Source of the DNA: Pedobacter endophyticus
GTDB taxonomy: Bacteria; Bacteroidota; Bacteroidia; Sphingobacteriales; Sphingobacteriaceae
Direction of reading: 5' to 3'
Assembly (NCBI RefSeq): GCF_015679185.1
Contig: NZ_CP064939.1
Location: 1,178,001 to 1,242,000, forward strand
Length of the DNA stretch: 64,000 bases
Below are positions 1,731-63,558 of the stretch, piece by piece (position 1 is the stretch's first letter; each line of letters begins with the position of its first letter). The notes under the pieces were generated by a model. That model had not been told where the DNA came from. It saw only the letters and a list, made by a program, of their open reading frames with translations, and ran no database searches. The translations under genes and the position numbers were made by a program.

Positions 1731-3313
1731 CTACCGTGTACTGGTCGTGGATCCGAAAAACGGAAAGCAATATGGGAAGTGCTTAAAAACGCATTCATTG
1801 AAGCACTTATGCCGAGTATTGACAATGAGATCTCCATCGCTTCGGTAGAAGAAGTAGAAGGAAAAGGCAAAAAGAAAAGCTTTTTTGGACGATTGTTTTC
1901 AGGGAAAGATGATGAAAAGAAGAAAGGACGGTCTGGGTTAAAGAAATACAAGACCATTAAAAATCGATACTGCCCATCACCACCCATCAACGGAAAGGTA
2001 TCCTCCCAGATCTTTCCTGCGGTAATATCGTTTTTGAACTTTGTGGCGACTCTTTGGGCATGTTCCGGATGACTGACTATCTCCCAGCCGCCATTGCGCA
2101 TGCGCTCCAAGTCCTGTCCTGTAAAATCGCTCCAGCGTTTATTATACCAATAAATATCGCCCGTTGCATCCGCCATCCACGCGAGTTGGGACATATTGTC
2201 TGCTAAGGTCTGAAGGTTCATCTCGCTTTCTACCAGCCTACTATTTAGGCTAAAGAGATGTTCCTGGGTCTTGATGAGCGAATCGTTTACCAATATTACC
2301 TCGCGGTTGATTATGGCCAGCTCCTCATTCTTTGATTCCAGTTGATCGTTGAGTGCCTGTTTGGACTGCTGGGCAATAACCTGACTGGTGACGTCAACAG
2401 CCATATCGATCACGCCGGTTACTTTCCCATCCTCCATCAGCGGCGCATAAGTAAAATTGAAGTAGCTCCTCTCTATTTTTCCGTTTCTCTTCAGATCTAC
2501 TGCCGTACCATCTCCAAATATAGGCTCGCCCGTTTCCAGAACGCTATATAAAAGGTCAAAGGGCCGCTGCCCCTTAAGTTCGGGAATAGCAACCAAAAGC
2601 GGCTTGTCAATTATATCCCCTTTTTTATTCAAAATCTCCAACATAGGCGGATTAACGGATTCTATCACCATTTCCTGCCCTCTGAACACGATAATAGCGA
2701 CGGGCGCCTGTTGGATGAGTGACTGGACTCGGCTGCTGCTCAGTTCAAGATTCTGGAGAAGGCTGGCAGAATGCGCCTCAGCTTTTTCAAGGGATAAATT
2801 AAGCGCTTCCATTTCTACCAGCTGTTTCCGGAGTTCAAGCTTGTCCATCACCTGCTTGGCAATCACTTTCAGGGCGTACCTTTGCTCTTTACTTAATACC
2901 TTTCGATTGGGATCTATAATACATAGTGTGCCGAGGCTAAAGCCATCCTTGGAGATCAACGGGATGCCCGCATAAAAGGTTATATTTGGACTCCCCGTTA
3001 CAAGTGGATTGTCCTTAAAACGGTCATCTTGATGCGCGTCTTCAACAATCATCATATCTGTGCCCGAGGCAATCGCATGTGCACAGAAAGATTGTTCAAT
3101 TGGGGTCTCCGAAGCCTCAAGCCCCCTGTGAGACTTGAACCATTGGCGATTTTCATCAACAAGGCTGATTAGGACAATGGGAACCTGGCAGATGGCGCTT
3201 GCGACTGCGGCGAGGTCATCGAATTCACGCTCTTCTATTGTATCAAGTATATGATAGGATTGTAAAGCACGCAAACGGGCTGCTTCATCGTGCGCATCTG
3301 AAATTTTTGACAT
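1715..3313 (-). pseudogene. GAF-PAS sensor histidine kinase, truncated before its kinase domain
   Basis: Residues 1-170 form a GAF domain with the hallmark stretches LQSYHILDT, DENRQWFKS, FCAHAI and KDNPLVTGSPN. A PAS domain follows at about 195-310, a coiled coil at about 315-365, and the start of a second PAS (QLAWMADATGDIYWYNKRWS) at about 375. Homology stops within the second PAS at about GGDGQYRF (near base 1970). The remaining 80 or so residues are low-complexity read-through. The HisKA and HATPase domains that the intact paralogue at 31475-34033 has are missing. It was probably cut by a rearrangement that joined it to a foreign frame running the other way. If translated, it would be a sensor without kinase output. 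Confidence 0.75.
1734..1955 (+). pseudogene. foreign C-terminal coding fragment opposing the truncated kinase
   Basis: A plus-strand frame is open across this segment and reads as plausible protein: a helical part (RKAIWEVLKNAFIEALMPSI), then an acidic and lysine-rich tail with GKKKSFFGRLFSGKDDEKKK. It ends where the antisense kinase homology begins, so it is likely the tail of another gene brought in at the breakpoint near 1960-1975. I do not recognise it, and no start for this frame is visible. Confidence 0.35.
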
Positions 3314-7348: not shown

Positions 7349-7798
7349 TTATTTTATAAGAGAATCCACTTTGAAACCCATGATCTTGATTGCTTCATTG
7401 TCAGATTTAAGAATGAAACGTTCACGAAGAGGTCTTTGATACTTATCTCTTTGTGAACGAAATTCAATTTTGTATGAACCGTGAAGCGCTTCTGCTTCCA
7501 CAACAGCACTACTGTTAGAAACTAATTCAATTGATTTCAGGTCACCATACCGATTTAGAATATTCTGGAAGGTTTCAAGAAGGGCAACTCGCTTTGCTTG
7601 ATATTGCGGTTGATTTGGAATTAGATTAAAAAGTAATAACGCACCTTCTTGATCGCGGTTTTTGAGGAACTGGTAAAATTTCTTCGTTAATTCCAAGGCT
7701 TTAGCCTTGTCTTCAGGTCTGTTGATATAGGTTTTTGTTTGCTTGCAACTAAGGATTATGACTGTTAATAGAAACAGACATGTTATTTTGTTTTTCAT
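7349..7798 (-). CDS. putative lipoprotein of unknown function
   Basis: The 149-residue product has a lipoprotein signal: a lysine-rich start, a hydrophobic core LFLLTVIIL and a lipobox-like LSC with the cysteine at about residue 17. After export it would be lipid-anchored. The mature part is a small alpha+beta domain (ALELTKKFYQFLKNRDQEGA near residues 34-53, then a strand region ending in IKIMGFKVDSLIK). It resembles the many small NTF2-like or DUF4864-like lipoproteins, but the match is not strong enough to name. It is monocistronic. Confidence 0.65.
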   Translation of the reverse strand: MKNKITCLFLLTVIILSCKQTKTYINRPEDKAKALELTKKFYQFLKNRDQEGALLLFNLIPNQPQYQAKRVALLETFQNILNRYGDLKSIELVSNSSAVVEAEALHGSYKIEFRSQRDKYQRPLRERFILKSDNEAIKIMGFKVDSLIK

Positions 7799-58678: not shown

Positions 58679-58796
58679 GTCGTCATTTCCGCGCCAGCCT
58701 GAACGGACGGGATTAATGCAATTGACCCTTTTCGAGCATAAGGATCCCCAGTCAAGCTGAGGATGACGACCGTTCATGGTTGGCGTTCATGGTTGA
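58679..58796. repeat. MITE-like intergenic repeat plus a short tandem duplication
   Basis: A 92-bp segment (58679-58770) is bounded by the inverted pair GTCGTCAT / ATGACGAC and has CCCCAGTCAAGCTGAGGATG near the right end, like the dispersed intergenic repeats of many Bacteroidota. Directly after it a 13-bp unit CGTTCATGGTTGG is repeated twice (58771-58796). No coding capacity. It lies between convergent purL and tonB. Confidence 0.5.
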
Positions 58797-58843
58797 CGTT
58801 CGGTGATCTTCTCAAACCTCAAATCTCCCCGCTCAAATCGCTA

Positions 58844-62125: not shown

Positions 62126-62265
62126 GCATCCTGATTTCGAGGATTTTTAAGATGTAAATTGAGGAGGCAATGTTCAACCTAACTGCCAACAACTAAGTTC
62201 GGATCTTTTTTGCCCCATGCTAAAAACCTTTCACCTTTTACCTTCCACCTTTTACCTCTATTCAC

Positions 62266-62280: not shown

Positions 62281-63558
62281 ATGAGTGATAATAGGTACAA
62301 TCAGCGTGGCGTTTCTGCCTCAAAAGAAGATGTGCACAATGCCATCAAAAACATCGACAAGGGAATCTTCCCAAAGGCGTTTTGCAAAATCATTCCCGAT
62401 ATTTTAGGTGGCGATGAAAACTATTGCAATATTATGCATGCCGATGGTGCGGGAACAAAATCTTCGCTGGCCTATGTTTACTGGAAAGAAACCGGCGATG
62501 CGTCGGTATGGAAAGGAATAGCACAGGATGCCATTATCATGAACATCGACGATTTAATTTGCGTAGGTGCAACGGATAACATTCTCTTATCATCAACCAT
62601 CGGGCGTAATAAAAATCTCATTCCAGGCGAAGTTATTGCCGCTATAATAAATGGCACCGAAGAGATTTTAGCAGATTTACGCGAGCAGGGAATTTCCATC
62701 TACTCTACCGGTGGCGAAACTGCGGATGTAGGCGACCTGGTACGAACAATTATTGTAGACTCGACAGTGACCTGCCGCATGAAACGCGAAGACGTGATCA
62801 GCAACGATAACATCAAAGCTGGCGACGTAATTGTTGGGTTGGCCTCTTATGGTCAGGCCACTTATGAAACCGAATACAATGGCGGTATGGGCTCAAACGG
62901 GCTTACCTCTGCACGGCACGATGTATTTGAGAAATCGATAGCAAATAAATATCCCGAAAGCTTTGATCCTGCTGTACCGTTTGATCTGGTTTTCTCGGGC
63001 AAGAAGCAATTGACGGAGGAGGTTGATGTTTCGACTCCGCTCAACATGACAGACTCGACTCCGCTCAACATGACAGACTCGACTCCGCTCAACATGACAG
63101 ACTCGACTCCGATCAACATGACAGACTCGACTCCGCATAAAATTACGGCCGGCAAGTTAGTGCTCTCTCCTACCCGTACGTATGCGCCTGTAATAAAAAA
63201 AGTATTGGAAAGCTATCGAAGCCAAATTAACGGCATTGTACATTGTAGCGGAGGCGCACAAACCAAAGTGCTTCACTTCATCAATGATGATGTTCACGTA
63301 ATAAAAGACAATTTATTTCCCGTTCCACCGCTTTTTAGGTTGATACAGGAGCAATCGGGTACCGATTGGAAGGAAATGTATAAGGTATTTAATATGGGGC
63401 ACAGAATGGAATTATATGTACCTACGGAGATTGCACAAAGCATTATCGAAATTTCGCAAAGCTTTAATATCGATGCGCAAATTATCGGTCGGGTCGAAAG
63501 CGCTGATAAAAAACAGGTAACCATAGAAAGCGAAAAGGGAACTTTCATTTATTATTAA
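62281..63558 (+). CDS. purM: phosphoribosylformylglycinamidine cyclo-ligase (AIR synthase) with repeat insert
   Basis: A 425-residue PurM relative, fifth step of purine synthesis. Signatures are RYNQRGVSASKEDVHNAIKN, IMHADGAGTKSSLAYVYWKE, IAQDAIIMNIDDLICVGATD, YSTGGETADVGDLVRTIIVD and, in the C-terminal half, GKLVLSPTRTYAPVIKKVL and NMGHRMELYVP. Between KKQLTEEVDV and HKITAGKL it carries about 35 extra residues, four copies of STPLNMTD (one with Ile) plus STP, encoded by a tandem 24-bp repeat. Without them the length would be about 389, normal for Bacteroidota. The insert falls in a loop before the second domain helices, so function is probably kept. Confidence 0.93.
   Translation: MSDNRYNQRGVSASKEDVHNAIKNIDKGIFPKAFCKIIPDILGGDENYCNIMHADGAGTKSSLAYVYWKETGDASVWKGIAQDAIIMNIDDLICVGATDNILLSSTIGRNKNLIPGEVIAAIINGTEEILADLREQGISIYSTGGETADVGDLVRTIIVDSTVTCRMKREDVISNDNIKAGDVIVGLASYGQATYETEYNGGMGSNGLTSARHDVFEKSIANKYPESFDPAVPFDLVFSGKKQLTEEVDVSTPLNMTDSTPLNMTDSTPLNMTDSTPINMTDSTPHKITAGKLVLSPTRTYAPVIKKVLESYRSQINGIVHCSGGAQTKVLHFINDDVHVIKDNLFPVPPLFRLIQEQSGTDWKEMYKVFNMGHRMELYVPTEIAQSIIEISQSFNIDAQIIGRVESADKKQVTIESEKGTFIYY
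63031..63136 (+). repeat. in-frame tandem repeat within purM (24-bp unit, about 4.4 copies)
   Basis: Units begin at 63031, 63055, 63079, 63103 and a partial one at 63127. Each starts TCGACTCCGCTCAACATG and ends ACAGAC; the fourth has one substitution (C to A in CCGCTC, giving Ile). The unit is a multiple of three and is read S-T-P-L-N-M-T-D. Its complement (CATGTTGAGCGGAGTCGA) resembles dispersed intergenic repeats of the group. Confidence 0.95.

Follow-up and report, generated by a model that had tools for sequence, protein, structure and literature searches.

The window analysed here is a stretch of 64,000 nucleotides from the genome of Pedobacter endophyticus, which is assembled as one contig of 5.43 Mb with an estimated completeness of 100%, and it contains a purM gene that remains open through a short tandem array (Table 1). 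The encoded protein scores above the cut-offs of the Pfam models AIRS and AIRS_C and also matches TIGR00878, the NCBIfam purM model, but below the cut-off of the latter. Its closest solved relatives are the Bacteroidota PurMs 3MDO and 3KIZ, and its best matches in named genomes are from Pedobacter species. A search of the genome for PurM returned a single match and no second copy, and the nearest relative in an alignment of 47 PurMs shares 92% protein identity with it. The open frame, this degree of identity and the fact that purM is single-copy suggest that the enzyme is still functional. Immediately 5' of purM, Tandem Repeats Finder reports a ACCTTCCACCTTTT repeat (62226-62257), and several relatives carry a similar text, CTTTTACCTTCCACCTT, 5' of their purM; a short 13-bp tandem repeat (2.4 copies, same program) is located at 58771-58801. 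Moreover, Bacteroidota-type PurMs with approximately 73% identity in the best segment were encountered in two records with other labels, i.e., the complete genome CP034120.1 (L137, labelled Glaciecola amylolytica) and a MAG labelled Candidatus Kuenenia stuttgartiensis (L108), which may reflect mislabelling, contamination or transfer.

Table 1. Features of the purM locus and of related loci in the same genome; positions are those of the window unless stated otherwise.
Feature	Position	Strand	Remarks
purM ORF, host gene	62281..63558	+	425 aa, open through the array; sole PurM match in the genome
24-bp minisatellite	63031..63136	+	4.4 copies, 97% matches; Tandem Repeats Finder, period 24
Array unit starts	63031, 63055, 63079, 63103; partial unit from 63127	+	
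Unit 1, complete REP palindrome	63025..63050	+	arms ATGTT/AACAT around core TCGACTCCGCTC, followed by TGAC (GTCA on the other strand)
Insert, residues 251-286	63031..63138	+	36 codons; STPLNMTD x3, STPINMTD, STPH; replaces EGFG of the nearest relatives
Predicted beta-strand before insert, residues 247-249	63019..63027	+	AlphaFold2 model
Predicted beta-strand after insert, residues 287-289	63139..63147	+	AlphaFold2 model
Sibling REP-core array	288378 of genome (L243)		period 21 bp, between genes, complete palindrome first
Sibling REP-core array	1863258 of genome (L251)		period 21-22 bp, between genes, complete palindrome first
Sibling REP-core array	2451245 of genome (L254)		period 21-22 bp, outside called genes
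RAYT (REP-associated tyrosine transposase)	L142:1426-1980		single in genome; several ACTCGTT..AACGAGCG palindromes around
IS200-type TnpA locus	L141:1417-1875 and 1890-2590		TnpA with an adjoining long array of a further palindrome, GCCGTCGGCTAAAGCCAGACGGC

The four full units and one partial unit of the original prediction were recovered by Tandem Repeats Finder at identical coordinates. Units 1-3 have the same sequence, from which unit 4 departs at a single base (CTC to ATC, replacing L by I), the partial fifth unit consists of TCGACTCCG, and the starts of successive units are exactly 24 bp apart; the 24-bp unit has 4 matches in the window, versus 0 in 100 shuffles. Since the 24-bp unit corresponds to exactly eight codons and has no stop in this frame, the number of units can vary without frameshift. 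The frame is open as had been proposed, but because the 36 codons stand in place of four (EGFG) the net gain is 32 residues and not about 35. Likewise, the start assigned earlier is that of the tandem array, but the palindrome of the first copy begins further upstream, at 63025. This first unit has the arms TGTT/AACA, and units 2-4 have AGAC/AACA, i.e., their 5' arm is absent. The AACA 3' arm is confined to purM among the 20-mers with at most 1 mismatch to the unit. Within this genome the palindromic 24-mer TGTTTCGACTNCGCTCAACATGAC is found only in purM, in a single copy. Of 400 genomes of the order, 9 others contain it too, so that it represents a genuine REP subtype for which the own genome offers no donor copy.

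The alignment of PurM orthologues, which had been suggested as a check, gave relatives that are devoid of the insert. The segment VFSG...SPTR or its equivalent comprises 63 residues here. In the other 109 PurM loci compared (29 of them from same-genus genomes and 80 from named records, with some species counted twice) it has 27-40 residues, 31 in 85 of them, and the insert is missing from all 109. The best PurM match in every other genome listed ends at or before residue 257. At the insert site the nearest purMs read EIEIEGFGKTTVGK or similar, where the protein studied here reads EEVDV-STPLNMTD...STPH-KITAGK. The nearest purM found is 83% identical at the DNA level upstream of the insert, and the event can therefore be dated only to after that split. 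The recent expansion and the variable copy number between strains that were suggested earlier would fit the near-identity of the units. An old protein repeat, for which the original prediction expected the insert in all relatives and no unit elsewhere in the genome, is ruled out by these 109 loci: the insert is absent from them and the unit is dispersed. Judged from these comparisons, the in-frame insert, which the PurMs of the relatives examined do not have, appears to be a derived state.

The insert is placed in a beta-hairpin loop that is length-variable in the other PurM loci as well, as reflected by the 27-40-residue segment. An AlphaFold2 model of the protein (mean pLDDT 81.9; TM-score 0.97 to 3MDO by target length) assigns pLDDT values below 50 to residues 254-284, between two short strands, and the alignment of 47 PurMs contains no invariant column in residues 244-294. 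The insert is accordingly modelled as a disordered loop of the hairpin, and it is probably flexible and polar as well as disordered. PurM appears to tolerate it, and the array is probably harmless.

The core of the unit belongs to a family that is dispersed over the genome. Its strict pattern, TCGACTNCGCTCNNNNTGAC, has 267 matches (143 + 124), as compared to 0 for the reversed pattern that served as control, and it is present in 61 of 145 same-genus genomes including the own genome, e.g., with 43 matches in G003 and 103 in G019. The copies have a core of 12 bases, which pairs only partly, enclosed by an outer stem of 4-5 bp. The arms vary among copies yet pair, with TTTC/GAAA, TCCT/AGGA, CCCT/AGGG, GTCT/AGAC, and GGCT/AGCC as the commonest combinations. 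At 129 loci, drawn from 301 copies by leaving out copies less than 500 bp from the previous copy kept, 93.6% of the arm positions are paired, versus a mean of 63.7% and a maximum of 69.2% in 1000 arm shuffles. An end tag is found on the other strand in 273 of the 301 copies (TGTC in 225 and CGTC in 48), and base counts beyond the 5' arm revealed no CCA consensus on that strand. On the basis of its high copy number, covarying arms and TGTC/CGTC tag, the dispersed family is a REP. The resemblance of the purM unit to dispersed, mostly intergenic repeats was thus recognised correctly, and a chance likeness is ruled out by the 0 of 100 shuffles and the 267 to 0 ratio with the control.

The location of the copies was determined by allowing at most 2 mismatches in 16 fixed bases, with genes called by a simple codon-usage script and not by a published gene finder. 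An even sample, made up of the window and 99 stretches of 20 kb each (2.04 Mb in total, 73.8% of it called coding; 1242001-1262000, beside the window, left out), contains 168 copies, of which 162 are intergenic, 5 are inside a called ORF and 1 is at an ORF edge. The five in-ORF copies are the four purM units and one copy in a weak 48-aa ORF. Addition of 25 extra stretches, selected for bearing copies, gave 295 intergenic, 5 in-ORF and 1 edge copy among 301, and in two relatives all 27 copies (15 of G019 and 12 of G003), taken from 16 stretches that were picked because they bear copies, are intergenic. The 115 copy clusters with genes on both sides lie in convergent gaps 34 times and in divergent gaps 9 times, as compared to 206 and 240 among 1256 gaps overall, a total that includes the gaps in the 16 stretches from relatives. 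A generally gene-invading family is therefore rejected, since purM and the weak 48-aa ORF account for all in-ORF copies among the 301; within the 2.28 of 5.43 Mb covered, purM is the exception. The element had been proposed as a Bacteroidota counterpart of the Rickettsia palindromic elements, and at purM it acts like one, but the family otherwise avoids genes: apart from the purM units, the even sample contains 164 copies, 162 of them intergenic, one in the weak ORF and one overlapping an ORF edge.

A single REP seed followed by local tandem amplification probably explains the array in purM. A REP-type palindrome, GATGTTTCGACTCCGCTCAACATGAC, tagged by TGTC/CGTC on the other strand, would have come into the length-variable hairpin loop, with some four codons of the host gene (those for EGFG in the relatives) lost in the process. 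The 24 bp downstream of its 5' arm, consisting of the core, the 3' arm and a 4-bp linker, would subsequently have been duplicated in tandem, most simply if replication slipped between the TCGACTCCG words with which every unit opens, and each unit gained or lost would add or remove eight residues (STPLNMTD) with the rest of the enzyme left intact. Both this order of events and the slippage between these words are inferred. The two arms occur together in unit 1 alone, and its complete palindrome is present once in the genome, which is better explained by one seed and tandem duplication than by repeated invasion; a colonisation of purM by several incoming copies, as originally suggested, is therefore not supported. 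A single complete unit (26-mer, z -0.18) and the whole array (z 1.24) fold no better than shuffles, and hairpin-driven slippage is therefore without energy support; an intergenic-type copy gave a z of -0.62, and a 27-base copy of the type of units 2-4 has no stable fold (energy 0). Further points count against the one-seed account: neither simple insertion nor slippage accounts for the missing EGFG codons, an intermediate allele with one unit is not known, and the genome holds no second copy with these arms as a source of the seed.

A short-period pattern (core, 3' arm, at most 8 bases, core again) was used to look for comparable arrays. It matched 12 times in this genome, at 4 places, and only once across the 144 other genomes of the genus. 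Read from their start, the sibling arrays at 288378 and 1863258 have later units without the 5' arm, which begin at CGACTCCG or at a shortened CACTCCG. The array at 2451245 is overlapped by a TTG-started ORF of 109 aa that the codon-usage caller rejected as a gene. Tandem amplification of REPs is thus a habit of this lineage. A more specific reading, which we regard as unlikely, is that an activity of the lineage turns REPs into 'headed' minisatellites by repeatedly restarting the copying just downstream of the 5' arm at CGACTCCG, so that a single complete palindrome stands first and units without that arm follow; if true, the purM array would act as a length switch that is still changing, in frame, within a housekeeping enzyme, and this activity would provide a route from intergenic repeat to protein. 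REP arrays of longer period (approximately 45-52 bp) were seen at 7374, 102124, 321906, and 4839830 of the genome; the spacers of the first three resemble TTGGTTCATTGGTTCATTG, and the fourth was recognised by spacing alone. Elsewhere, a 246-bp tandem repeat of 5.9 copies lies within a called ORF of 1647 aa (L148:11036-12499).

Transposase action in trans has been proposed for REPs and RAYTs, and it is conceivable, albeit rather unlikely, that a Y1 (HUH) transposase brought the seed into purM before its amplification, a course that is compatible with the one-seed account. The genome encodes one RAYT above the NCBIfam cut-off (NF047646) and one IS200-type TnpA. However, the purM-type core has no copy in the RAYT or the TnpA locus (3264 and 3342 bases), and even its first six bases and the 3' end pattern are absent from both these loci of approximately 3.3 kb. 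Around the RAYT lies a different palindrome, ACTCGTT..AACGAGCG, and around the TnpA yet another, GCCGTCGGCT..AGCCAGACGGC. For published CGTC REPs, too, no dedicated transposase is evident (PMC3733652). In view of the different palindromes and the lack of core copies at both loci, mobilisation by the local RAYT cannot be taken as demonstrated.

The in-frame period of 24 bp and the identical or nearly identical units would also fit a functional repeat, i.e., a selected loop in which the number of units tunes PurM activity or partners. We consider this improbable, as the array is present in only one genome among those examined, no residue of the loop is invariant among relatives, the loop is predicted to be disordered, and the same type of array is also found between genes. 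Serial colonisation, in which every unit is an independent REP that arrived in purM in turn, is less probable again: REPs are numerous in this genome and often clustered, but units 2-4 lack the 5' arm, have the AACA 3' arm in common, which was found only in purM (20-mers, at most 1 mismatch), and start at exact 24-bp intervals. Least credible of all is an artefact or a decaying gene, with a misassembled unit number or a non-working purM, since the error-prone assembly of tandem arrays and the occurrence in one genome only are outweighed by the single-contig assembly with 100% estimated completeness, the open frame, the 92% identity to the nearest aligned relative and the absence of a second PurM match, and gain or loss of whole units by assembly would leave the reading of the site unchanged.

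The purM array is a clean example of non-coding repeat DNA incorporated into a conserved enzyme: a single genome shows the family it came from, its derived state and the pattern of its amplification. The case separates a gene-invading repeat family from one rare landing with local amplification, and with the sibling arrays between genes the amplification step becomes open to testing in a bacterium of the Pedobacter group. A text search of the literature with the REP core sequence gave only unrelated papers, and searches on in-frame palindromes and RAYTs of Bacteroidetes, in-frame REPs and RPEs, Pedobacter repeats, and REP-derived minisatellites gave PMC3733652 as the only close one; the RepRanger paper (PMC12306157) names Bacteroidota genomes, and the portion of its text available does not describe a purM-type element. 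The 'headed minisatellite' form may be the least familiar part, as the literature search found nothing specific to it.

Like the RPE-1, RPE-4 and RPE-6 elements of Rickettsia, the purM element is a palindromic repeat that lengthens a housekeeping protein without disturbing the reading frame, and the protein presumably remains functional. REPs, BIMEs and REPINs associated with RAYTs are known as short palindromes of high copy number that occur in pairs and clusters, all of which applies to the family described here. Coding minisatellites (VNTRs) of bacteria have near-identical units with a length that is a multiple of three, and their copy number is expected to change by slippage; the purM array resembles them in unit length and near-identity, and differs in that its unit is a recognisable piece of a dispersed palindrome. 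Unlike RAYT-type REPs, the family shows no GTAG-type tag (PMC3733652), and none of its copies is found beside the RAYT. According to that same study (Di Nocera, De Gregorio and Rocco, 2013), whose main text makes no mention of Pedobacter, CGTC-tagged REPs are found in five phyla, Bacteroidetes included, as short, mostly intergenic palindromes that prefer convergent and co-directional gaps and have no evident transposase; the superfamily is characterised by a stem of 8-9 bp starting with AT, a loop of 4-5 bases and an unpaired tail that is mostly CCA. The purM family resembles them in its TGTC/CGTC end, mostly intergenic location, few divergent gaps, in-gene copies and lack of an evident transposase, whereas full membership in the CGTC families is opposed by the absence of a CCA tail and, less clearly, by an outer stem of only approximately 5 bp. 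The same source classes the Rickettsia RPE-4 and RPE-6 as CGTC-4 and CGTC-1 REPs, and reports many RPE copies within ORFs of R. conorii, unlike the situation here, in which purM is the sole convincing case among the copies examined (PMC3733652). It furthermore describes single and grouped CGTC REPs inside ORFs of several species, with clusters that encode 43-82 residues in Thauera and R. conorii. Since intragenic REPs have thus already been published, the purM array joins a known type of event, and it is distinguished from the CGTC in-gene clusters of that study by its units without 5' arm behind one complete palindrome, and by its place in a PurM of the Pedobacter group.
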